Source: Methylococcus sp. EFPC2
GTDB lineage: Bacteria; Pseudomonadota; Gammaproteobacteria; Methylococcales; Methylococcaceae
NCBI RefSeq assembly: GCF_016925495.1
Contig: NZ_CP070491.1
Location: forward strand, 3,224,001-3,288,000
DNA: 64,000 bases
Direction: 5' to 3'
Part shown: positions 14,082 through 25,049 of the stretch, one piece after another
How the letters are laid out: the number at the start of each line of letters is the position of its first letter
Numbering within the stretch: position 1 is the first letter of the stretch
Program-made: the position numbers and the translations under genes
Notes under the pieces: model-generated
Told to the model about the DNA's origin: nothing
The model's input: only the letters and a program-made list of their open reading frames with translations
Databases searched by the model: none

Positions 14082-14179
14082 CGGCGCGTTCGGACGCTCA
14101 CCGTGCCCGCCCGGGTAACCGGCTTCGGCCTGGCGGCCAGGCGCCGCAGAGGTTCTAGACATCTTTGGAGGATCGTGAC

Positions 14180-15457
14180 ATGCGGGAAGAACACTTCGAC
14201 GTGGCGGTGATCGGCGGCGGGCCGGGCGGGGCCAGCGCCGCCACGATCCTGGCCAGGGCCGGAAAACGGGTGGTGCTGTTCGAGCGCAGCCGCTTTCCGC
14301 GCTTCCAGATCGGCGAGTCCCTGCTGCCCGCCGGCTGGGACCTGTGGCGTCGTCTCGGCGTGACCGAGAAGATCGAGGCCGAGGGCTTCACGGTCAAACA
14401 AGGGACCACCTTCGGGATGTTCAACGAAAAGCCCGACGTCGTGCTGCTGACCGCGGAATATCCGGATTACTTCGAGCGGCCTTACACCTATCACGTCGAG
14501 CGGGCCCGCTTCGACGAAATCCTGCTCGACCACGCCGCCGAATGCGGGGTGGAGGTGCGCCAGGAATGGTCGGTGCAGGACGTGCTGTTCGAAGGCGAGC
14601 GGGCCGTCGGCGTGCTGGCCGGTCCCAACGGGGAAACTCCGGCCCCCATCCATGCGCAGGTCGTGGTCGACGCCTCCGGCCGCGCATGCCACATCGCCCG
14701 CAAGCTGGGCTGGCTGCGCCCGCATCCCGAACTCAACAAGATCGCCCACTACTCCCACTTTACCGGCGCCTTCCGGCGCGACCCGCACGACGTCGTCTCC
14801 GTCGGCGAGGTGATCGAAGACTCGGTCACCACCGATATCCACACCATCGAGGGCGGCTGGCTCTGGTACATACCGCTGAAGAACGGCATCACCAGCGTCG
14901 GGGCCGTGCTGGACGCCCGTTTCGCCAAAACCCTGGGCGCCGCGCCGCAGGAGCGCTTCGACCGGGCGGTGCAAAGCTGCGACTGCGTGCGGGAATGGAT
15001 GAAGGATGCGCGACAGGCGATGGAGTTGAAAACCGTCTCCTCCATCGCCTATATGAACGATTGCTTCCACGGGGCCGGTTTCGTGCTGGTGGGCGACGCG
15101 TCGATGTTCATCGACCCGGTGTTCTCCGCGGGCGTGACCCTGGCCCTCCGGGGCGGCGTGTATGCGGCCGACGCGATACTCGACGGCTTTGCCCACGGCA
15201 ACGATTTCAGCGCCGCGAGGCTCGGCGCCTACGAGGACCGCATCCGCGAGCCGATGGAGCGGATCTTCAAGATGATCTACAACTGGTACCGCATCCTGGA
15301 CCAGAAAGACGCCAACAACATCATCCTCCGCGCCCGCCAGATGCCGATGCTGCGGGAGCGTTTCATCGTCCTGCTGTCCGGGGGATACGACAAGGTGAGC
15401 ATGGCGCAAATCCTCGCAGCGGCGGAGGAGCCGGCATCCACGTATCTGACGGCCTAG
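14180..15457 (+). CDS. FAD-dependent halogenase-like monooxygenase
   Basis: A 425-residue flavoprotein. The ATG at 14180 is preceded by GGAGGA with seven-base spacing, so an in-frame TTG at 14165 is rejected. Residues 8-16 carry the dinucleotide motif GGGPGG. RFPRFQIGESLLP (38-50) and the halogenase motif WxWxIP (W227-L-W229-Y-I-P) match the CmlS/PltA and tryptophan-halogenase superfamily. Lys73 lies where the catalytic lysine of that family is expected. GDASMFIDPVFSAGV is the second FAD block. Many relatives are annotated only as NAD(P)/FAD-dependent oxidoreductases, so halogenation is a reasonable hypothesis rather than a certainty. No obvious carrier protein or biosynthetic partner is adjacent. 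Confidence 0.78.
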   Translation: MREEHFDVAVIGGGPGGASAATILARAGKRVVLFERSRFPRFQIGESLLPAGWDLWRRLGVTEKIEAEGFTVKQGTTFGMFNEKPDVVLLTAEYPDYFERPYTYHVERARFDEILLDHAAECGVEVRQEWSVQDVLFEGERAVGVLAGPNGETPAPIHAQVVVDASGRACHIARKLGWLRPHPELNKIAHYSHFTGAFRRDPHDVVSVGEVIEDSVTTDIHTIEGGWLWYIPLKNGITSVGAVLDARFAKTLGAAPQERFDRAVQSCDCVREWMKDARQAMELKTVSSIAYMNDCFHGAGFVLVGDASMFIDPVFSAGVTLALRGGVYAADAILDGFAHGNDFSAARLGAYEDRIREPMERIFKMIYNWYRILDQKDANNIILRARQMPMLRERFIVLLSGGYDKVSMAQILAAAEEPASTYLTA

Positions 15458-15578: not shown

Positions 15579-17060
15579 ATGAACCGTCTCGCTGGCTTGG
15601 TGGCGATCGGCGCGCTGCCGGCTTTCTTCGTTCTGGGGTGCGCGAGCTTGCCGCCGCCCGCCCCCTCCGGCAGCCGGGAGGCCGAATGCCTGAGCTTTCT
15701 CGGCGAGATGGACGAGCGGGTGGCCGAGCATGGCGTGGAAGACAGCGGCGCGGCGCGGATCGCGGGCTTTCCCCAATTGCGCATCGACCGTTTCCTGGCC
15801 TCATTCGCCAGTGAGCACCTGGAAGGCGCGGCTTATGTGGCTTGGCTGGAGCGCTTGCGCAAACTGGACGAACGCGCCCGATTGATCGAGCTGAACAATC
15901 TGCCTACCGACGCCGCCCAGCAAGTTCGGGCGCACGCGCCATCCGGACTCACGGTCGAAGCCGCGATCAAGGTTTGCGGCGAGGCGCTGGACAAACGCGA
16001 TCTCGCTACGCTGGCCCGTCGACAGCGGCTGCTGGCGCACGCCGTCGTTCCCGATGCCTATTCCACCTGGCAGCGGGTGCTCGGCCTGTATCCGCTCACG
16101 CGCTGGGCCGCCGTCAACGGCGTTGCACGCTTGCACCGGGAACTGCGTGCGCCCTTCATTTTTCCCCGCCCCGCCCTGCCCGCCGCCGGCCGCCTGGTCC
16201 ACTACGCGCCCGCGCCTGAGGGCGGCCCCGAAGCCGCCGCCGGGATCTTCGATGAATTAGCCGCGGATGCCCTGGGAATTCCGCAACCCAATGAGGCCCA
16301 ACTCGATCGGCTCTATGCGGCGTATGCGCCGGTCTGGGCCGTCGATACGGCGAGCGATGCCGACCGCATCGGGACGGTCCGCCTGGACGCCGCGGGCGTA
16401 CCCCAAGTCGAGGTCAGCGCGCCCGCCGTCTACCGCTGGCTATCCCATGTCCGCTGGGGCGAACGCAGCCTGCTGCAACTCAATTACCTCGCCTGGTTCC
16501 CGGCGCGGCCGCCGGCCAGCCGGCTGGACATCTATGCGGGCCGTTTCGACGGCCTCATCTGGCGCGTGACCCTGGCTCCGGACGGCAGGCCGCTCGCCTA
16601 CGACAGCATCCACCCCTGCGGCTGCTATTACCAGATTTTCCCGGGGGAGGGCGTCCGCGTCGCGCAGCCGAAGGACGGCTCGGAGCCGGTCCTGTCGCCG
16701 GCCGTCATTCCCCTGCTCCAGCCCGGCGAACGTATCGTCATCCATCTTTCCTCGGGCACGCATTTCATCCAGGGCGTCACGCTGGAAACCGGCACTCCGC
16801 CAGCGGCGGCTTATGTCTGGCGGGATTACGACGAGCTGCGCTCGCTGGCGGGCCCGGACGGGCGGCGGCACGGCTTGTTCGGCCCCGACGGGCTGGTGAG
16901 GGAAAGCGAACGGCCCGAGCGCTTCTTGTTCTGGCCCATGGGCATACCCAGCGCCGGCGCGATGCGCCAGCCGGGCAACCACGCCATCGCCTTTCTCGGC
17001 CGGCGGCATTTCGACGATCCCAGGCTGCTGGACAAACTCCTGCGGCCTATCGGCAGGTGA
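15579..17060 (+). CDS. Uncharacterised lipoprotein
   Basis: A 493-residue protein with a lipoprotein signal (hydrophobic 5-18, lipobox VLGC with Cys21; the following Ala predicts outer-membrane destination). I do not recognise the family. Visible features are an SHVRWGERSLLQLNYLAWFP block, DIYAGRFDGLIWRVTL, a CGCYY cysteine cluster after YDSIHP, and a late HAIAFLGRRHFDDPRLL. The concentration of conserved-looking aromatics and His residues in the second half suggests an enzymatic or cofactor-binding domain. It is followed only six bases later by a START-like gene, so the two form an operon. Confidence 0.7.
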   Translation: MNRLAGLVAIGALPAFFVLGCASLPPPAPSGSREAECLSFLGEMDERVAEHGVEDSGAARIAGFPQLRIDRFLASFASEHLEGAAYVAWLERLRKLDERARLIELNNLPTDAAQQVRAHAPSGLTVEAAIKVCGEALDKRDLATLARRQRLLAHAVVPDAYSTWQRVLGLYPLTRWAAVNGVARLHRELRAPFIFPRPALPAAGRLVHYAPAPEGGPEAAAGIFDELAADALGIPQPNEAQLDRLYAAYAPVWAVDTASDADRIGTVRLDAAGVPQVEVSAPAVYRWLSHVRWGERSLLQLNYLAWFPARPPASRLDIYAGRFDGLIWRVTLAPDGRPLAYDSIHPCGCYYQIFPGEGVRVAQPKDGSEPVLSPAVIPLLQPGERIVIHLSSGTHFIQGVTLETGTPPAAAYVWRDYDELRSLAGPDGRRHGLFGPDGLVRESERPERFLFWPMGIPSAGAMRQPGNHAIAFLGRRHFDDPRLLDKLLRPIGR

Positions 17061-17066
17061 TCGGCG

Positions 17067-17672
17067 GTGAAACTGGTCGCACGCTACATTTGCCGGGCGG
17101 GAAGAATAGGGCTCCTGCTGCTCGTTGGCTGCGGCCTGGGCCTTGAAGCGGACGGCGCGGAAGTCCTGAACGTGGTGGTCAGAGAGCAGCAGGGACGCTA
17201 TGAGCTGCATTCGGAAGTGTTGATTCTGGCGCCCGCCCCGGAAGTCCGCGCGTTGCTCATGGACTTCGAGAACCTGCCGCGGATCAACCCCGACCTCAAG
17301 CGGGTCAGGGTGCTGGATCGCAAGCATGACGGCGAAGCCCGCCTGGGCATAGTCGCGGAATTCTGCCTGCTGGCGTGCCTGGACCTGAATTGGGTCCAGG
17401 ATGTCCGGCTCCAGCCCGGCGGGGACATTGCAGTGGCCATAGAGCCCAATAGCGGGGATTTCCGCCAGGGCAACGGGCATTGGCGCCTGCTCCCGGCCGG
17501 CACCGGAACCCGGCTGATCTACACCGTCGAGCTGACGCCGAATGTCTGGCTGCCGCCGGTGTTCGGCCCCTGGCTGATGAAGCGCAAGATGGCCGTGGAA
17601 GCGGTCGAGACCTCGCGAGCCCTAGAACGCATGGCCGTCCCCAACCCGATCCCGCGCGCGGCCGCTCCCTGA
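17067..17672 (+). CDS. Exported START/Coq10-like (SRPBCC) protein
   Basis: A 201-residue protein with a hydrophobic N-terminal segment (IGLLLLVGCGLGLEADGAE) acting as signal peptide or lipoprotein signal. The body resembles the polyketide-cyclase/Coq10 START fold: EVLILAPAPEVRALLMDFENLPRINP, then a strand-rich core with GHWRLLPAGTGTRLIYTVEL and a long C-terminal helix. Such domains bind hydrophobic ligands. Six bases separate it from the upstream lipoprotein gene, so translation is probably coupled and the pair may act together on a lipid or envelope ligand. Its 3' end is close to, and convergent with, the gene at 17688. Confidence 0.75.
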   Translation: MKLVARYICRAGRIGLLLLVGCGLGLEADGAEVLNVVVREQQGRYELHSEVLILAPAPEVRALLMDFENLPRINPDLKRVRVLDRKHDGEARLGIVAEFCLLACLDLNWVQDVRLQPGGDIAVAIEPNSGDFRQGNGHWRLLPAGTGTRLIYTVELTPNVWLPPVFGPWLMKRKMAVEAVETSRALERMAVPNPIPRAAAP

Positions 17673-17687
17673 ATCCTACGGCATCGT

Positions 17688-19838
17688 TCAGCCGCCCCGC
17701 CGCCAGGCGTGATACCGCTCCAGCCAGCGGAGCAGCAGCGTCGGCGCATGGGCTCGTTTCCACACGCCGGCGGCGTATCGGTTCGCCTCGGCCAAGGTCG
17801 GGTAGATGTGTAGGGTGCCGAGCAGCTTGTTGAGCCCTATGCCCTGCTTCATGGCCAGCACGAATTCGGCGATCAGATCGCCGGCGTGCGGGCCCACGAT
17901 CGTCGCACCCAGTATGCGGTCCGAGCCGGGCGCGGTGAGCAGCTTGACGTAGCCCTGCGCCTCGCCGTCGGCGATGGCACGATCCAGGTCGTCGATACCG
18001 TAGCGGCTGACTTCGCAGGCGATGCCCTGCGCTTGCGCTTCCTGCTCGTTGAGGCCAACCCGCGCCACTTCCGGATCGGTGAAGGTGGCCCAGGGGATCA
18101 CGCGATAGTCGGCGCGGAATGCCTTGAAATCGCCGAACAAGGCATTGACCGCCGCGTACCAGGCCTGGTGGGACGCCGTGTGGGTGAACTGGTAAGGCCC
18201 CGCCACGTCGCCGCAGGCGTAGATGTTGGGGTAGAGGGTCGCCAGATAGTCGTTGGTCTCTATCGTTCGCTCCGCCGTGGTGGGTATGCCCAGTTCTTCC
18301 AGGCCGTATCCCTGGATGTTGGCCACGCGGCCGACCGCCACCAGGATCTGGTCGCAAGGAATGCTCACCTCCTCGCCCCGGTGTTGCGCGACCAGGATTT
18401 TTTCGCTCCCCTCGACGGCGACGCGCACGGCACTATGCTCCAGGCGCAGTTCCACACCTTCCGCACGGAAGCGCTCGGCAACGAATTCGGATACGTCCGG
18501 GTCTTCCCGAACCAGCAGCCGAGGGGCCATTTCCACCAGCACGACTTGGCTGCCGAAACGCGCGAAGGTCTGCGCCAGTTCGCAGCCTATGGGCCCGCCG
18601 CCCAGGACGACCAGACGCTGCGGCAATATGCGCAGATCCCAGACGGTGTCCGAAGTCAGGTAGCCGGCTTCTGCCAGGCCGGGAATGGGCGGAACCCAGG
18701 GTCTGGCCCCGGCGGCGATGACGATGGAACGGGTGGTCAGCGTGCGCCTGCCGTCGGCCGTTTGTACTTCGACGGACCAGGGCGTCAGGATTTTGGCCTC
18801 ACCGGCCAGCACCTCGACACCCAGCTGGGTATAGCGCTCCGCCGAGTCGTGGGGTTCCACCGCCCTGATCACCCGCTGCACCCGCTCCATGGCCTCGGCG
18901 AAATCGAACTCGGCGTCGGCCCGGCGGATGCCGTATTCCGGCGCGCGGCGTATGCGGTTCAGCAGTTTGGCCGTGCGTATCAAGGCCTTGGAAGGAACGC
19001 AGCCGGTGTTCAGGCAATCCCCGCCCAAGCGGTGTTTCTCGACCAGGGTGACCTTGGCCTTGGCCGCGGATGCGATGTAGGCGGCAACCAGACCGGCGGC
19101 TCCCGCGCCTATCACCACCAGGTTGCGATCGTAACGGGCGGGCTTTTCCCATTTTTCGTAGGCCTTGCGCGCCTTCACGGTGTCGACGAGTTTCCGGGCG
19201 ATCCACGGGAACAGCCCCAGCAGGGCGAAAGACAGCAGCAGGCCCGGCGAGAGTATGCCGGAGAGCGAGTCGATGCCGGCCAACTGGGTGCCGGCGTTCA
19301 CGTAGACGATCGTGCCCGGCAACATGCCGACCTGGCTGACCCAGTAATAAGTGCGCACCGGCAGGACGGTCAGCCCCATCAGCAGGTTGATGACGAAGAA
19401 CGGGAATAGCGGCACCAGCCGCAGAGTGAAGAGATAGAAAGCCCCGTCGCGGGCGATGCCGGCGTCTATGGCCTGGGCACGCTGGCCGAAGCGGTTTTTC
19501 ACCGCGTCCCGGAACAGGAAGCGGGCGGCGAGAAAGGCCAGGGTCGCCCCCAGAGTCGAGGCGAACGAAACGATCACCGTGCCCCAGAGCAGGCCGAAGA
19601 CGGCGCCGCCCGCCAGGGTCAGCACCGCCGCGCCAGGCAGGGACAGCGCGGTGACCGTCACATACAGCAGACCGTAAAGCGCGACGGAGAGCAAGGGATG
19701 AACGGCCCGGTAAGCGGCGATGGCGTCCTGCCCGGCTTTCAGTGCTTCCAGGGTGAACCAGCGCTGCAGGTCGAAGGCGAAGAACGCGCCGGCGAGCAGC
19801 AGCAGGCCGACGATCAGGACGAGACGATTGCGATACAT
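17688..19838 (-). CDS. Fusion of VTT/DedA-like membrane domain and pyridine nucleotide-disulfide oxidoreductase
   Basis: A 716-residue fusion. Residues about 1-225 form a TVP38/TMEM64 (VTT, SNARE-associated) membrane domain with a starting helix and several hydrophobic segments, including the family block LRLVPLFPFFVINLLMG. Residues about 235-716 are a complete class I flavoprotein disulfide reductase: FAD motif VVIGAGAAGLVAAY, redox-active pair GGDCLNTGCVPSKA (CxxxxC), NAD(P)H motif GGGPIGCELA, and the C-terminal HIYPTLAEA active-site His-Glu. There is no N-terminal NmerA domain and no C-terminal Cys pair of true mercuric reductase. It is divergent from arsS across 169 bp, which suggests a link with arsenic or thiol redox handling; this is inference. 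Confidence 0.87.
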   Translation of the reverse strand: MYRNRLVLIVGLLLLAGAFFAFDLQRWFTLEALKAGQDAIAAYRAVHPLLSVALYGLLYVTVTALSLPGAAVLTLAGGAVFGLLWGTVIVSFASTLGATLAFLAARFLFRDAVKNRFGQRAQAIDAGIARDGAFYLFTLRLVPLFPFFVINLLMGLTVLPVRTYYWVSQVGMLPGTIVYVNAGTQLAGIDSLSGILSPGLLLSFALLGLFPWIARKLVDTVKARKAYEKWEKPARYDRNLVVIGAGAAGLVAAYIASAAKAKVTLVEKHRLGGDCLNTGCVPSKALIRTAKLLNRIRRAPEYGIRRADAEFDFAEAMERVQRVIRAVEPHDSAERYTQLGVEVLAGEAKILTPWSVEVQTADGRRTLTTRSIVIAAGARPWVPPIPGLAEAGYLTSDTVWDLRILPQRLVVLGGGPIGCELAQTFARFGSQVVLVEMAPRLLVREDPDVSEFVAERFRAEGVELRLEHSAVRVAVEGSEKILVAQHRGEEVSIPCDQILVAVGRVANIQGYGLEELGIPTTAERTIETNDYLATLYPNIYACGDVAGPYQFTHTASHQAWYAAVNALFGDFKAFRADYRVIPWATFTDPEVARVGLNEQEAQAQGIACEVSRYGIDDLDRAIADGEAQGYVKLLTAPGSDRILGATIVGPHAGDLIAEFVLAMKQGIGLNKLLGTLHIYPTLAEANRYAAGVWKRAHAPTLLLRWLERYHAWRRGG

Positions 19839-19902
19839 GGCGGATTCCCCCGTATGCGATGGCCGGATGGCATTGTCGCTTGGTCGGCCCCCGAAACCAA
19901 AA

Positions 19903-19960
19903 CTTACAGCCGAAGAGGGAAAGGTTTATTCGCCGCCGCTGTAAGCTTACGCTAAGTCCC
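19903..19960. promoter_or_regulatory. Inverted-repeat operator in the divergent promoter of the arsenosugar region
   Basis: Within the 169-bp gap between the fusion oxidoreductase and arsS there is an 8-bp inverted repeat, CTTACAGC (19903-19910) and GCTGTAAG (19938-19945), spaced by 27 bp. The right arm overlaps a perfect 10-bp palindrome GTAAGCTTAC (19941-19950) followed by CTTACGCTAAG. The recurring CTTA(C/A) units look like binding half-sites for a regulator shared by both transcripts. The protein is not encoded in the window next to them. Confidence 0.5.
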
Positions 19961-20007
19961 GCGACCAATAGCCGACCTTCCGCCCTTACCGGAGCCCAGT
20001 ACAGACC

Positions 20008-20994
20008 ATGCACGCCTTATTGCCCCTGGTACGCACCAGCGACTTTCCCAATTTAACCCGCGGCCGGCTGGAAACGGTGCAAGTCAACCTGGGCTACCGC
20101 TGCAACCAGGCCTGTTTGCACTGCCACGTCAACGCCAGCCCCAAACGCAAGGAGATGATGACGCGGGAAACCGTCGAGCAGGTGCTGGCCTGGCTGCGGC
20201 GTACGCCCGCCTCGACCTTGGATTTGACCGGCGGTGCGCCGGAGATGAACCCGCATTTCCGCTATCTGGTCGACGGCGGGCGCGAGTTGGGGCTGCACGT
20301 CATCGACCGTTGCAACCTGACGATACTGGAAGAGCCGGGTTACGAAGACCTGGCCGATTTTCTCGCCGAACGGCGGGTGGAAATCACCGCCTCGCTCCCC
20401 TGTTATCTGGAGGACAACGTCGACCGGCAGCGCGGCGACGGGGTGTTTCAGGCCAGCATCCGCGGACTCGGCAGGCTCAACGCCCTCGGTTACGGCAGCC
20501 CCGATTCCGGCCTGGTCCTGAACCTGGTGTACAACCCGCAAGGCCCGACCCTGCCGCCCGCGCAAGCCGGATTGGAAGCGGATTACCACCGCGAACTGGA
20601 CGCGCGCTACGGCATCCGCTTCAACCGCCTCTACGCCCTGGCCAACATGCCCATCCAGCGTTTCGGCAGCACGCTGGTATCCAGGGGACAATTCGAGCCT
20701 TATCTGCGCCTGTTGAAGCAGGCCCACCGCGAGGAGAACCTGGAAAACGTCATGTGCCGCAGCCTGATCAGCGTCGACTGGCAGGGTTACGTCCACGACT
20801 GCGATTTCAACCAGATGCTGGGATTGCCCCTGGGCGGGACGAAGCGCCATGTGACGGAAATCGACGCGGCCGCCCTGCCGGGCCAGGCCATCATCACCGC
20901 CGACCATTGCTACGGCTGCACCGCCGACGCGGGGAGTTCCTGCGGCGGCGCCTTGAGCGGAAGTACCCGCAATGCTCCCGACCAACCCGACTGA
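20008..20994 (+). CDS. arsS: Arsenosugar biosynthesis radical SAM protein ArsS
   Basis: A 328-residue radical SAM enzyme. The iron-sulfur motif is RCNQACLHCH (Cys32, Cys36, Cys39, CxxxCxxC), followed by the SAM-binding segment DLTGGAPEM. The C-terminal half (DUF3641-like) includes FNRLYALANMPIQRFG and a cysteine-rich tail, HCYGCTADAGSSCGG, which is diagnostic of ArsS. ArsS is understood to transfer a 5'-deoxyadenosyl group from SAM to a methylated arsenical on the route to arsenosugars. The arsM-like gene begins 18 bp downstream, the usual partner, so the two are cotranscribed. Confidence 0.92.
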   Translation: MHALLPLVRTSDFPNLTRGRLETVQVNLGYRCNQACLHCHVNASPKRKEMMTRETVEQVLAWLRRTPASTLDLTGGAPEMNPHFRYLVDGGRELGLHVIDRCNLTILEEPGYEDLADFLAERRVEITASLPCYLEDNVDRQRGDGVFQASIRGLGRLNALGYGSPDSGLVLNLVYNPQGPTLPPAQAGLEADYHRELDARYGIRFNRLYALANMPIQRFGSTLVSRGQFEPYLRLLKQAHREENLENVMCRSLISVDWQGYVHDCDFNQMLGLPLGGTKRHVTEIDAAALPGQAIITADHCYGCTADAGSSCGGALSGSTRNAPDQPD

Positions 20995-21012
20995 TCCCGG
21001 AGAACACCCACC

Positions 21013-22131
21013 ATGTTTGTAGAAAATACCGTACGCGAACGTTATTCCGAAGGCGCCCGCGAGCGTCAGGAAGCCCTCTGTTGCCCCGTGGACTACGACC
21101 GCGAACTGCTGAAGCGGCTGCCGCAGGAGATCATCGACAAGGACTACGGCTGCGGCGATCCCTCCCTCTATGTGCAGGAAGGCGACACCGTGCTGGACCT
21201 GGGCTCGGGCGGGGGCAAGATCTGCTACATGGCGGCGCAACTGGTCGGGCCGGAAGGCTTGGTGATCGGCGTCGACATGAACGACGACATGCTGGGCCTG
21301 GCGCGCAAATACCAGCCCGAGATGGCTGAAAAACTGGGCGGCGACCGGGTGCGTTTCGTCAAGGGCTATATCCAGGATCTGGCCCTGGACGTGGAAGCGA
21401 TGGAAGCCTATCTGGCCGAACATCCCGTGACCGACGCCGCTTCGCTCGCGGCGCTGAAGGCCTGGCAGACCCGGCAGCGCAGGGAACGGCCGTTGATCGC
21501 GGACCACTCGGTGGACCTCGTCATCTCCAACTGCGTGTTGAACCTGGTGGGCGACGGCGACAAGAACCAACTGGTCGAGGAGATCTTCCGCGTGCTCAAG
21601 CCGGGCGGGCGGGTCGCCATCTCCGACATCGTCGCCGACGAACCGGTGCCGCAGCACCTGAAGGACGATCCCACCCTGTGGAGCGGCTGCATCTCCGGCG
21701 CCTTCGAGGAAAGGGAGTTCATCCGCGCCTTCGAACGGGCCGGCTTCGGCGCCGTGTGCCTGGATCGCTGGGAAGCCGAGCCCTGGCAGGTGGTCGAGGG
21801 CATCGAATTCCGCGCCGTCACCCTGGTCGCCTTCAAGGGCTGGGGCCGGGAATGCATAGACCGCGGCCATGCGGTGATCTACCGCGGCCCCTATACCGAG
21901 GTGCGCGACGAGGAGGGCCACGTCTTCCCGCGCGGCGAACGCATCGCCGTGTGTGAGCGGACCTTCCGCACCCTGACCGAAGGCCCCTGCCGCAAGCATT
22001 TCATCGGCATCGAACCCAAGACCCTCGCCGCCCCCATCGCTTGGTGCGCGCCGCACGGCACCCGCCGTTCGCCCAAAGAAACCAAGGGCGGGCGGCAGAT
22101 CGTCGAGTGCGGCGGGGAGAAATGCTGCTGA
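21013..22131 (+). CDS. arsM: Arsenite methyltransferase-like protein of the arsenosugar pathway (ArsM)
   Basis: A 372-residue class I SAM methyltransferase. VLDLGSGGGKICYMAAQL is the SAM-binding loop. Cysteines sit at ALCC (23-24), DYGCGD (47), VISNCVLNLV and LWSGCISGA; the last three match the As(III)-binding cysteine pattern of ArsM proteins. An insertion of about 50 residues precedes the SNCVLNL block. A C-terminal extension ends in CGGEKCC, giving extra thiols. It follows arsS directly. Expected activity is SAM-dependent methylation of trivalent arsenic, supplying the substrate for ArsS. Assignment to the arsenosugar subtype rests on the neighbour. Confidence 0.88.
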   Translation: MFVENTVRERYSEGARERQEALCCPVDYDRELLKRLPQEIIDKDYGCGDPSLYVQEGDTVLDLGSGGGKICYMAAQLVGPEGLVIGVDMNDDMLGLARKYQPEMAEKLGGDRVRFVKGYIQDLALDVEAMEAYLAEHPVTDAASLAALKAWQTRQRRERPLIADHSVDLVISNCVLNLVGDGDKNQLVEEIFRVLKPGGRVAISDIVADEPVPQHLKDDPTLWSGCISGAFEEREFIRAFERAGFGAVCLDRWEAEPWQVVEGIEFRAVTLVAFKGWGRECIDRGHAVIYRGPYTEVRDEEGHVFPRGERIAVCERTFRTLTEGPCRKHFIGIEPKTLAAPIAWCAPHGTRRSPKETKGGRQIVECGGEKCC

Positions 22132-22172
22132 CCCTAGAAGCGCCGACCCCAACCCGATCCAAGGGAACACTT

Positions 22173-22739
22173 ATGAGCTTCGTCGACACCCCCGATGATT
22201 ACCCCTATGCCTGGTACGTCCGCCCGGTGCTGGCCCTGTTGCGCAAGCGCCTGGGCGGCGTGCCGGAACCCGTGAAGCTTTGGGCGCGCATGCCCCTGGC
22301 CTTTCTCGGCTTCCAGCTGATGCAGCGCGCGCTGGAACGCAAGGCCTCGCCCCTGGACGGAAAGCTGCGCGCCCTGGTCCGCACCCGCATCGCCCAGCTC
22401 AATAGCTGCCATTTCTGCGTCGACCTCAACGCCTCACATGCCCTGGAGCGGGGCGTCACGGAGGAACAATTGCGGGATCTGGCGATATTCCGCGACTCGC
22501 CGCGTTTCGCTGCGGCGGAAAAAGCCGCCCTGGTCTACGCGGAAGCCGTCAGCGGCGAGGCCATCGCGATCGAGCCCGAGCTGATAGAGCGTTTGCGGCA
22601 GGCTTACGGCGACCAGGGCATCGTCGAACTGGCCGCCCTGGTCGGCCATCAAAACCTTTCCGCCAAATTCAATGCGGCCCTCGGCGTGCCGGCCGAAGGC
22701 TATTGCATGACGGCTTACGGAATCGCTCCGCCGGATTGA
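22173..22739 (+). CDS. Carboxymuconolactone decarboxylase-like (AhpD-fold) protein
   Basis: A 188-residue helical protein with the AhpD-type motif LNSCHFCVDLNASHA (Cys79, Cys82, then His89). The ATG at 22173 has AAGGGA upstream; an ATG overlapping the arsM stop would add 17 unlikely residues. It is third in the arsS-arsM operon. A thiol redox protein in this position could reduce arsenicals or repair peroxide damage, but I know of no experimental role. The stop codon is immediately adjacent to the stop codon of the convergent DUF3047 gene, with no intergenic base. Confidence 0.87.
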   Translation: MSFVDTPDDYPYAWYVRPVLALLRKRLGGVPEPVKLWARMPLAFLGFQLMQRALERKASPLDGKLRALVRTRIAQLNSCHFCVDLNASHALERGVTEEQLRDLAIFRDSPRFAAAEKAALVYAEAVSGEAIAIEPELIERLRQAYGDQGIVELAALVGHQNLSAKFNAALGVPAEGYCMTAYGIAPPD

Positions 22740-23480
22740 CTAGGGCCGGGACTTCGGCGATGGCTGGAACTCGACATCGCCGAAATAGCTGACGGCCCGC
22801 TCCCCGGTGTTGTCGGTGTCTGTCGCCAGCGCCACGCCGCTGATGCTCGGCGGCTCATCGCCGAAAGCGGCGCGGAAATCGGCGGCCACATCGCGGCTTT
22901 CCCGGACCCACTGTCCCACCTTCGCGGCTCCGCTTTCCAACACGATCATCCGCACCCGGTCGGTGTAGGCGCTCCAGGTGCGGGTACCGACCGGATAACG
23001 GTTGTCCCACACGTAACAGAGCGTGGCTGCCGGCAGATCCGTGCCGTAGACAAGCCTGGCCAGGGCGATCTTGGAGCGTTCCAGGAAAGGCAGGCGGCCG
23101 ATGTCGTAGTCGAAAAACACATAGACGCGGGCCGCATAATCGTCCCCGGCCTTGCTGGCGAGGTCGGCCTTGTCCAGCACGCGCGAGACTTTCCAGCGCC
23201 AGCTCAGCCAGGGGCTCGTCTTGGGGTCCACGTCGAGCTTGTGCGTGGCGCTGGCGGCCGAGGCGTCGGCGGTCGCGCGCAACACCGTGTCCTCGCCGTC
23301 CCGGACCAGATCGTAAACGGTCGCGCGAGGAATTTTCGCCACGGTGGTCACGGCCCAGCCTGCCGGCAAATGCTCACCGGGCGTCGCCGTGGAGAACGGG
23401 GTCGGCTGCGCGCCTTCGTCGGCGACGCAGATCCGACCGTACAACAAAACACCGCCGAGCAGGCGCACCAGCTTGTTCAC
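22740..23480 (-). CDS. DUF3047 domain-containing exported protein
   Basis: A 246-residue protein with an N-terminal hydrophobic segment (LVRLLGGVLLYGRICVA) that is probably a signal peptide. The body matches DUF3047: WLSWRWKVSRVLDKADL, DDYAARVYVFFDY, LCYVWDNRYPVGT and NTGERAVSYFGDVEF. The fold is predicted as a beta-sandwich of unknown function. Its start overlaps the end of the TIGR04282-type glycosyltransferase gene by four bases, so it is the last gene of the three-gene minus-strand operon. It is convergent with, and abuts, the arsSM operon. Confidence 0.85.
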   Translation of the reverse strand: MNKLVRLLGGVLLYGRICVADEGAQPTPFSTATPGEHLPAGWAVTTVAKIPRATVYDLVRDGEDTVLRATADASAASATHKLDVDPKTSPWLSWRWKVSRVLDKADLASKAGDDYAARVYVFFDYDIGRLPFLERSKIALARLVYGTDLPAATLCYVWDNRYPVGTRTWSAYTDRVRMIVLESGAAKVGQWVRESRDVAADFRAAFGDEPPSISGVALATDTDNTGERAVSYFGDVEFQPSPKSRP

Positions 23481-24130
23481 GTTACTCTCCTGTCGTATCC
23501 ATCATCGAACAAACCGCTGTCCGCCAGCCGGTCGAGATCCTCGGGCCGGTCCACGTCCCACAGCGTCTCCGGCTCGGTCCAGTTCAGCCCCAGGCCGGAC
23601 AGGCGGGCGCGCGTCTCCGCCATGACCCGGTCAGTGCCCCAGGGCATGTTTTCGAACAGGGCGGGCTCGGGCTTGCTCAGACCTATCAGGACGTAGCCGC
23701 CGTCCTCGGCCGGCAGAAAAACCGCGTCCTTGCCGCAGAGCAAAGCCTGGGCCGCGGAACGGAGAGTGTGAGCGGTCAGCGCGGGACAGTCCGTGCCCAC
23801 AAGCAGCACCGGGGATTCCGCGCAGAGGGCCGAGAAGGCGTGCAGCATGCGGGCGCCCAGATCTTCGCCTCGCTGCTCGAACAATCGCAAACCGAACCCG
23901 TCGCGGTGCGCGGCGAAAACCGGATGATCGCAGGATGGCGCGCACCACAGGGAGACCGGGCCGAGTTCGGCTGCGACCGCGGTTTCCAAAGTCCACCCCA
24001 GCAGGCGCCGTTGCAGATCGGCCGCACCCTCGGCACCCAAGCGGGGGATCATGCGCGTCTTGGCCAGGCCGGGTATGGGCGCCTTGGCGAACACGGCGAC
24101 GGCGACCTGCCGGCTTTCAATCGGGCTCAT
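23477..24130 (-). CDS. TIGR04282-family arsenosugar-associated glycosyltransferase
   Basis: A 217-residue nucleotidyl/glycosyl-transferase-like protein of the CofC/GT-A type. Family landmarks are VAVFAKAPIPGLAKTRMIP at the N-terminus, VLLVGTDCPALTAHTL, and FLPAEDGGYVLIGL, with the DxD-like site in GTDCP. This family is named for its frequent occurrence beside arsS. It overlaps both neighbours (14 bases with the upstream glycosyltransferase, four bases with DUF3047), so the operon is tightly coupled. A role in assembling the sugar part of arsenosugars is proposed in the annotation of the family; direct proof is not visible here. Confidence 0.9.
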   Translation of the reverse strand: MSPIESRQVAVAVFAKAPIPGLAKTRMIPRLGAEGAADLQRRLLGWTLETAVAAELGPVSLWCAPSCDHPVFAAHRDGFGLRLFEQRGEDLGARMLHAFSALCAESPVLLVGTDCPALTAHTLRSAAQALLCGKDAVFLPAEDGGYVLIGLSKPEPALFENMPWGTDRVMAETRARLSGLGLNWTEPETLWDVDRPEDLDRLADSGLFDDGYDRRVT

Positions 24131-24806
24131 AGCCGTAGATCTTCGCCAGCCGCGCCGGGGAGGCGCCGAAAAAGAACGCCAGGCGCAAGCTCCACATCAG
24201 CAGGACGGTGCGGACGACCCCATTTTTTTCCCAGCGCCGACCCGAGGTGGTCACCTTTTGCTGCAGGCAAAGCGGGGAGCCGTAAGCTTTGAGCCGGCGC
24301 GACAGCACGATGTCTTCCATCAGGGCGATGTCGGAGTATCCCCCGACCGTTTGAAACAGGGCGCGGCGCACGAATAGGCCCTGATCGCCGGTGGCGATGC
24401 CGCTCAGGCGGGAGCGGCGGTTCATGAGCCCGGCGATCACCGGCAGCCCACGATGGGTTCCATCGATGGCGACGTCGAAGCGACCCCAGTTCCGACCGCT
24501 TTCCGCCAGGCCCCGGCATATCAGCTCGTCGGCCGCGTCCGGCAGCCGGGTGTCTGCGTGGAGGAACAGCAAGATCTCGCCCCGGGCCAGCGCCGCGCCG
24601 GCGTTCATCTGCTTGGCCCGGCCCCGCCCGCTCGCGATCACGGCATCGGCGAACGGGCGCGCCAGCTCGGGCGTACCGTCCACGCTGCCGCCGTCGGCCA
24701 CGATCACCTCGCAGCCCCGAGTACGCAAGGGCTGCAAAGCGGCGAGCCGGGCCTGTAGGCCTTCGGCTTCATCGAGGGTGGGAAGGATGACGGAGAGTTT
24801 CACCAT
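24117..24806 (-). CDS. TIGR04283-family arsenosugar-associated glycosyltransferase
   Basis: A 229-residue family 2 glycosyltransferase starting MVKLSVILPTLDEAEGL. An upstream ATG at 24833 would add nine residues not usual for the family. It shows the GT-A fold blocks VIVADGGSVDGT and LFLHADTRLP (DxD-type metal site), then GDQGLFVRRALFQTVGGY and ALMEDIVLSRRL (catalytic ED). A basic, hydrophobic C-terminus could contact the membrane. It is first gene of the operon with the TIGR04282-type gene and DUF3047. This family is regularly found with arsS, consistent with the divergent arsSM operon nearby. Confidence 0.9.
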   Translation of the reverse strand: MVKLSVILPTLDEAEGLQARLAALQPLRTRGCEVIVADGGSVDGTPELARPFADAVIASGRGRAKQMNAGAALARGEILLFLHADTRLPDAADELICRGLAESGRNWGRFDVAIDGTHRGLPVIAGLMNRRSRLSGIATGDQGLFVRRALFQTVGGYSDIALMEDIVLSRRLKAYGSPLCLQQKVTTSGRRWEKNGVVRTVLLMWSLRLAFFFGASPARLAKIYGYEPD

Positions 24807-25049
24807 GGCTGTAGACGCAGGAAGCAGATCCATACACCGGTCCGGTCATGATAACCCGCCGCCCGGGGAAGTGCCCCGCGAACCCGGTTTCCTGATGGAT
24901 CGACCGGGGTGCGCGGAACTCGCCGACCGCGGGTCGAATCCGGCGAGGGCGGGCAACGGAGCGAGTGACCCTGCCGAGGCCAGGGAAATCCGCCTAACAC
25001 CGGGCATTTGTGTAAAATCCCGTCTCTTCAGTCTGATTCCGGATCCAAA

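Follow-up and report, generated by a model that had tools for sequence, protein, structure and literature searches.

A VTT-reductase fusion and a DUF3047 protein recur with arsS in and beyond a putative arsenosugar island of Methylococcus sp. EFPC2

Introduction

Algae and cyanobacteria are known to contain arsenosugars, and to our knowledge enzymes are known only for the first steps of their synthesis. In Synechocystis, first arsenosugar steps are carried out by SsArsM and SsArsS according to the available part of PMC8552651, which also states that trivalent methylated arsenicals are oxidised rapidly in air. The present analysis concerns an island of seven genes in a 64,000-nucleotide stretch of the Methylococcus sp. 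EFPC2 genome (contig NZ_CP070491.1, positions 3,224,001 to 3,288,000; hereafter the window), which resembles the Synechocystis pair in placing an ArsS above its curated cut-off beside an ArsM-like methyltransferase with four conserved cysteines, and resembles the arsenosugar pathway in its TIGR04282 and TIGR04283 enzymes, both named by NCBIfam for arsenosugar biosynthesis. It differs from the SsArsM/SsArsS system in the addition of a VTT (DedA/TVP38-type)/flavin pyridine-nucleotide reductase fusion, a CMD/AhpD-like protein and a putatively exported DUF3047 protein. The fusion and DUF3047 were found to be recurrent partners of arsS rather than chance neighbours, and the CMD protein to be mainly a partner at the level of the window's family.

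The architecture of the fusion is already in print, COG0398 DedA fused to PF07992/PF02852 being the commonest fusion of that subfamily in the available part of PMC10127716, and the window protein matches this arrangement of PF09335, PF07992 and PF02852 by its Pfam domains. No arsenic terms occur in the available part of the text of PMC10127716, and the fusion described here differs from those reported there in co-occurring with and adjoining arsS and in having the HPT His of lipoamide dehydrogenase replaced by Tyr. The association with arsS is well supported. No literature link of the fusion or DUF3047 to arsS was found among the open-access matches listed, which for some topics comprised only the best 20 of 31, 15 of 1,243 and 12 of 158; the combination of TVP38, arsenic and mercuric reductase gave no match in the open-access literature, and the one open-access paper that matched DUF3047 showed no arsenic link in its available part.

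Three other described systems are close to parts of the island. The reductase half of the fusion shares its fold and CxxxxC redox pair with mercuric reductase (MerA; structures 5x1y and 1zx9) and, with 5x1y, a Tyr at the acid-base position; it differs from MerA in scoring below the MerA cut-off, in lacking the C-terminal Cys-Cys and in its N-terminal VTT membrane domain. The fold and CxxxxC pair are likewise shared with dihydrolipoyl dehydrogenase 1ebd, from which the fusion differs in reading HxYPT instead of HxHPT and in scoring below the TIGR01350 cut-off. The pairing of an ArsM-type with an AhpD-type unit recalls the ArsM/AhpD two-domain selenoproteins, which are already a named NCBIfam family (NF041537, listed in a table in the available part of PMC13188914), whereas in the window the two units are encoded by separate genes, Cys takes the place of selenocysteine and the NF041537 score is 126 against a cut-off of 510.

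Results

Co-occurrence with arsS was counted in the window's family and in its class, in both cases without correction for phylogeny and with a fusion model (A1) built from nine arsS-linked fusions, which was also used for the scan of loci. Among the 38 genomes of the family that were searched, arsS was present in 19, and the reductase (fused or split, E <= 1e-100) was found in 17/19 genomes with arsS and 0/19 without it (p 1e-8). DUF3047 matches above 150 bits, a line drawn after two score groups had become visible, were found in 10/19 and 0/19, respectively. These family counts are not independent events because relatives share ancestry.

Of 369 sampled genomes of the class, 180 carried arsS over its curated cut-off and 183 at the hand-set threshold of E < 1e-60 that was used for counting. 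DUF3047 was present in 100 genomes and the fusion in 103 of the 133 with a match, a fusion being counted where the match spanned the model from position 110 or earlier to position 480 or later. Co-occurrence was seen for arsS with DUF3047 (83 genomes with both, 100 with arsS only, 17 with DUF3047 only and 169 with neither; odds ratio (OR) 8.3, p 1.5e-15), for arsS with the fusion (78, 105, 25 and 161 in the same order; OR 4.8, p 4e-10) and for the fusion with DUF3047 (56, 47, 44 and 222; OR 6.0, p 2e-12). PhaC, an unrelated control counted at E < 1e-40 (71 of 93 matching genomes), gave an OR of 0.86 with arsS (p 0.6) and of 1.75 with DUF3047 (p 0.05). The original prediction, made from the window alone, had proposed counting the co-occurrence of the fusion, the CMD protein and DUF3047 with arsS and had named random variation of the partners around arsS in related genomes, with no arsenosugar found, as the outcome that would speak against it; random variation is not what the family and class counts show, as the fusion and DUF3047 recur with arsS.

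The neighbourhoods of 100 arsS loci were taken from the listed matches, the three nearest relatives first and the remainder mostly by E-value, and are thus not a random sample; many matches at contig ends were skipped and several loci are still cut by contig ends. The hidden Markov models used for the neighbourhoods were built from matches in the same loci, towards which their scores lean. Within 6 kb of arsS, a fused form was found in 10 loci, a split VTT and reductase pair in 14, a VTT gene only in 11 and a reductase gene only in 5, together with a TIGR04282 gene in 71, a TIGR04283 gene in 67, an ArsM-type gene in 34, DUF3047 in 4 and CMD in 1. No VTT or reductase match exceeded the cut-offs at 20 control loci, which are DUF3047 loci and not random ones; two of them are shorter than 5 kb, an ArsM-type gene stands at a contig break in L219, L233 includes a TIGR04283-type gene, and an arsS gene lies about 2 kb from the start of L236.

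The fusion loci comprised the best 80 of at least 586 relatives of the A1 query, and arsS was present in the flank in 33 and elsewhere in the genome over the cut-off in 39, giving a total of 72/80. All three of the arsS, TIGR04283 and TIGR04282 genes lay within 6 kb of the fusion in 19/80 loci, with DUF3047 too in 7. Among the arsS matches listed, and with gaps measured between profile matches, 14 genomes from 11 families, that of the window among them, had arsS and the fusion no more than 2.6 kb apart; the two stood head to tail in 6 of these 14 genomes with gaps of 12-66 bases. By the same measure, DUF3047 lay at most 3 kb from the fusion in 6 genomes and at most 12 kb from arsS in 9. Clusters of arsS and the fusion were also seen on two environmental contigs from metagenome-assembled genomes (L193 and L213) labelled Bordetella parapertussis, a label that seems doubtful.

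The fusion of the window (17688..19838, minus strand) is a protein of 716 amino acids in one open frame, with scores of 82 bits for PF09335, 222 for PF07992 and 110 for PF02852; the reference sequence used for alignments and scans was taken without the first Met. Its redox pair is C275/C280, and the CxxxxC motif is kept in 91/91 fused and 17/17 split sequences. In disulfide reductases the HPT His serves as catalytic base, and in MerA the Tyr at that position matters. Alignment showed that the HxHPT motif of 1ebd reads HxYPT in the fusion, with Tyr679 replacing the HPT His, and that in 5x1y, too, the second His of HxHPT is replaced by Tyr; Tyr occupies the 679 position in 107/108 sequences, comprising 90/91 fused (one being truncated) and 17/17 split. 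The term 'disulfide reductase', which the original prediction had used, is therefore a fold label and not an assured activity, and as worded it does not stand. A conserved His-Glu pair considered as the catalytic dyad was dropped, as alignment to 1ebd and 5x1y identified the conserved His as the outer one and a Tyr at the position of the HPT His. In split reductases linked to arsS (L031, L045, L050, L051 and others), Tyr-Gln replaces the canonical His-Glu in 14/17, a further departure from a disulfide reductase site.

The fusion scored 397.6 bits against TIGR02053 (mercuric reductase; cut-off 454.45) and 397.7 bits against TIGR01350 (cut-off 408.8), and the best NCBIfam model, NF004991, gave 528 bits for the window protein and 501 bits for one split member, both below the cut-off of 620. 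The closest solved relative by sequence was mercuric reductase 5x1y (E 5e-97). Structure comparison, in which the VIA-align fold rows span residues 233-679 and thus the reductase half, gave a Z of 40.3 and a root-mean-square deviation (rmsd) of 2.4 over 435 residues with MerA Tn501 1zx9, and a Z of 40.4 and an rmsd of 2.5 over 439 residues with 1ebd. None of the 91 fused (one truncated) and 17 split sequences carried a MerA-type C-terminal Cys-Cys. In the model of the fusion, the VTT part reached moderate confidence only; the linker past its last helix is Lys/Arg-rich by eye, and the flavin domain should therefore face the cytoplasmic side of the membrane. In a tree of 57 sequences, for which a third of the fusion-scan loci were retained and sequences shorter than 380 amino acids were left out, 16/17 split arsS-linked reductases formed one clade (support 100/95) and all 36 fused sequences with the remaining split form made up the adjacent clade (support 100/99). 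Four other reductases lay outside both, and the branch uniting the two clades had a support of 97/72, the root being a drawing choice.

The DUF3047 gene (22740..23480, minus strand) scored 253 bits for PF11249 (gathering score 27). By eye, several members of the family appear to have signal peptides, and the protein is probably exported. An AlphaFold2 model of the putative mature protein, with a predicted local distance difference test score of 92, is a jelly roll resembling that of carbohydrate-binding modules. Comparison with a glucuronyl epimerase domain gave a Z of 14.5 (rmsd 3.0 over 153 residues) and with CBM4-2 a Z of 11.4 (rmsd 3.2 over 149), a likeness of fold alone from which sugar binding is only predicted; microtubule-associated proteins reached a Z of up to 14.7. 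No solved relatives were found by sequence search at E <= 1. The two DUF3047 score groups of the window's family differ in their distribution, matches above 150 bits occurring only in genomes with arsS and those of about 100 bits in longer frames irrespective of arsS. The DUF3047 gene of a family relative (G136; L031 19120-19975) is spread over two frames, as if broken.

The arsS gene (20008..20994, plus strand) encodes a radical SAM (S-adenosylmethionine) enzyme with 455 bits against TIGR04167 (cut-off 300), 41 bits against PF04055 and the CX3CX2C motif in the form CNQACLHC. It is followed by the gene for an ArsM-like SAM methyltransferase of 372 amino acids (21013..22131, plus strand), whose best NCBIfam match is NF040538 at 345 bits, below the cut-off of 500. 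Among 27 long members, counting that of the window, cysteines 23, 47, 174 and 226 of this protein are kept in 27, 27, 27 and 26, respectively, and they stand at a constant offset of 7 from cysteines 30, 54, 181 and 233 of BgArsM (PMC8552651, available part). The C-terminal Cys-Cys is retained in 26/27 long members.

The third gene of this strand (22173..22739, plus strand) encodes a protein of 188 amino acids that belongs to the AhpD/CMD family by PF02627 (50 bits against 23), TIGR00778 (30.0 against 27.8) and a CxxC motif in the form CHFC, and scores 112 bits against NF053654 (cut-off 310). Homologues (E <= 1e-20) were found in 13/19 family genomes with arsS and 1/19 without, and the order ArsS-methyltransferase-CMD is retained in six other genomes of the family (G419, G420, G421, G438, G439 and G444), with a divergent VTT domain upstream in 6/6 and a reductase in 5/6; G439 has the opposed TIGR04282-TIGR04283 pair too. 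In G430 and G136 a CMD gene precedes a reductase gene, immediately in the former and at a distance of about 0.8 kb in the latter. As a general partner of arsS the protein was rejected class-wide, with a single case within 6 kb among the 100 arsS loci; with a broader AhpD profile, one further arsS locus (L125, at 5.3 kb) and 4 fusion loci were added. The place assigned to CMD beside arsS in the original prediction thus holds within the window's family, where it is kept after ArsS and the methyltransferase, and fails across the class.

All seven genes of the predicted island were confirmed at the positions given. The fusion is encoded on the minus strand and is separated by 169 bases (19839..20007) from the arsS, arsM-like and CMD genes on the plus strand, which are spaced by gaps of 18 and 41 bases. 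They are followed on the minus strand by DUF3047, a gene of the TIGR04282 family (CofC-like; 23477..24130; 197 bits, cut-off 134) and one of the TIGR04283 family (GT2, MftF-like; 24117..24806, with an alternative start at 24833; 273 bits, cut-off 182), both named by NCBIfam as arsenosugar-biosynthesis glycosyltransferases. The overlaps of 4 and 14 bases within this trio indicate a tight operon, as had been proposed; the fusion, which had been described as facing arsS, instead stands back to back with it. A simple scan of the island for sigma-70-like promoters, including the 169-base divergent region, found 0 with 0.8 expected and is therefore uninformative. Frames recognised by eye as hslV- and hslU-like come after the island. 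The host genome of 4.56 Mb holds two methane/ammonia monooxygenase A family matches and one ACR3 arsenite permease distant from the island, and a genome search with the window ArsM-like protein gave no second match. The organism is most likely a methanotroph of the Methylococcaceae.

Several further families recur in the neighbourhoods, those of DUF547, TIGR03169, the extracytoplasmic function (ECF) sigma factors and the fatty acid hydroxylases each being identified on one or two members. Genes of the DUF547 type (26/80 fusion loci; L186 12197-13075) and of the TIGR03169 'N-terminal to SelD'-type oxidoreductase (20/80; L184 13717-14994) recur beside the fusion, also where the genome is without arsS. 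DUF692-like genes are found in 11/80 and DUF2063-like genes in 9/80 fusion loci (L140 3557-4441; L148 162-1860), and from inspection by eye we take these to be of the bufferin type. Genes of the ECF family lie within 6 kb of arsS in 15/100 loci; in split arsS clusters (L051 10495-13724; L031 11892-12825) the ECF gene is between or near the reductase and VTT genes and is adjoined by a small unmatched gene that may encode an anti-sigma factor. A fatty acid hydroxylase family is found upstream of arsS within 6 kb in 23/100 loci (L047 3902-4795), a possible hint of arsenolipids; the one member checked matched PF04116 and was OlsE-like at 90 bits, under the cut-off. TIGR04282-like and TIGR04283-like domains match one open frame in L052, L082, L102, L159 and L189, which suggests natural fusions of both enzymes. 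At lower coordinates than the island, the window encodes a tryptophan-halogenase-like FAD (flavin adenine dinucleotide) enzyme (14165-15457, plus strand; PF04820 117 bits; halo_ClmS 190 bits, far under the cut-off of 900), followed 3' by a frame without family match (15579-17060) and a polyketide-cyclase-like protein (17067-17672).

Discussion

We give an even chance to the reading that the island is one of arsenosugar-type biosynthesis with a membrane redox module belonging to the pathway, the association having been counted directly and the chemistry being inferred. From the known functions of their families, the ArsM-like enzyme would methylate arsenite and ArsS would add the 5'-deoxyadenosyl group to dimethylarsenite, and by family name the TIGR04282 and TIGR04283 enzymes would be glycosyltransferases of the same pathway. 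The reductase domain, cytoplasmic and tethered by the VTT domain, would use NAD(P)H, FAD and C275/C280 and would return methylated arsenic to, or hold it in, the trivalent thiol-bound form needed by ArsM and ArsS. Because the active site has a Tyr of the mercuric-reductase type and not the HPT His, the acceptor may be a metalloid-thiol adduct and not a plain disulfide. The CMD protein would act as an accessory thiol protein, and DUF3047 would act on the outer side of the membrane, where it would probably bind the sugar moiety of the product. The integrated route with a membrane step that had been predicted is a fair reading, since the fusion and DUF3047 recur with arsS and the ArsS-methyltransferase-CMD order is kept in six relatives; it is the disulfide reductase label, as worded, that was not upheld.

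Several observations weigh against this reading. Neither VTT nor reductase was found within 6 kb in 60/100 arsS loci, some loci ending at contig ends, from which it follows that the module is dispensable for some ArsS. The background is not zero, as 7/80 fusion loci have a second VTT (4) or reductase (3) match in their flanks, and the 80 fusion loci lean to arsS-linked forms because of the origin of A1 and the retention of its best matches. PhaC is mildly associated with the fusion across the class (OR 2.3, p 0.005), and lifestyle may therefore account for part of the class signal of the fusion. The Tyr at the 679 position is also present in 3/5 other reductases of the same loci. The methyltransferase scores below every curated ArsM cut-off (NF008823 190/263 and NF038099 131/400 in addition to NF040538) and for this reason is named only ArsM-like. 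Finally, 25/103 class genomes with the fusion are without arsS by our threshold and 8/80 fusion loci are in genomes without arsS over the cut-off (one of which, G379, has a piece of arsS at a contig end), indicating that the module can serve something else.

These last counts favour a second explanation, that the VTT-reductase and DUF3047 constitute a general membrane redox or envelope module acting on thiols, quinones or lipids, which is co-regulated or cohabits with arsS clusters and does not act on arsenic. The link between the fusion and DUF3047 persists among class genomes without arsS (12 with both, 13 with the fusion only, 5 with DUF3047 only and 156 with neither; OR 29), so that in some lineages the module is older than arsS, outlasts it or exists independently of it, and the 8 fusion loci without arsS have DUF3047 beside the fusion in 4, DUF547 in 4 and a TIGR03169-type gene in 4. 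The ECF sigma factors in some arsS clusters point the same way, as does the tie of COG0398 fusions to aerobic metabolism in general that is reported in the available part of PMC10127716. However, in the window's family the reductase occurs only with arsS (17/17 genomes), the closely spaced head-to-tail pairs of arsS and the fusion come from 5 families and the class-wide adjacency is well over that of the control loci; we consider a general module the less likely reading.

A variant in which the module serves lipid-linked arsenic, with the VTT domain carrying an arsenosugar lipid through the membrane and that lipid being acted on by the reductase and the outside proteins, appears quite unlikely. 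It would agree with the lipid scramblases and flippases among VTT relatives (PMC10127716, available part), with the fatty acid hydroxylase family near arsS and its OlsE-like member, and with the carbohydrate-binding-type fold of DUF3047 and the signal peptides apparent by eye in DUF3047 and DUF547 members, but the window island has no recognisable lipid-transfer enzyme, no member of the hydroxylase family was found in the window slice examined and the model of the VTT part is of moderate confidence only. It is very improbable that the reductase acts on mercury or another soft metal and stands beside arsS as a separate resistance function: its best solved relative by sequence and its Tyr are those of mercuric reductase, and fusion locus L200 also has a MerA-like reductase with a C-terminal Cys-Cys about 9 kb away, yet the fusion itself misses the TIGR02053 cut-off, the Cys-Cys is absent from the fused and split sequences alike and inspection of the recurrent neighbours by eye revealed no mer gene. 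The notion of independent passengers, with arsS, the fusion, CMD and DUF3047 brought together by chance, is scarcely credible, for although some or all of the added partners are missing from most arsS loci, they co-occur in family and class and adjoin one another repeatedly in unrelated families, and for the fusion the co-occurrence and adjacency counts already refute it.

Returning to the arsenosugar pathway, a bolder form of that reading may be put forward, although we consider it doubtful, in which the fusion would be a new kind of metalloid-thiol reductase, tethered to the membrane and devoted to the synthesis of arsenosugars or arsenolipids. Methylated arsenic would be reduced on the CxxxxC pair at a Tyr-Glu site in the fused or a Tyr-Gln site in the split forms (14/17), the arsenical sugar or lipid would then cross the membrane and DUF3047 would bind it outside. 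In MerA, the enzyme's own C-terminal Cys-Cys hands the metal to the active site, and the Cys-Cys of the ArsM-like protein may hand arsenic to the fusion in the same role.

The reduction and export steps now have named, testable candidates in a membrane reductase that co-occurs with arsS and has an altered active site and in a putatively exported protein of sugar-binding type, and the presence of the reductase adjoining arsS in many other bacteria suggests an unrecognised step of the arsenosugar pathway.

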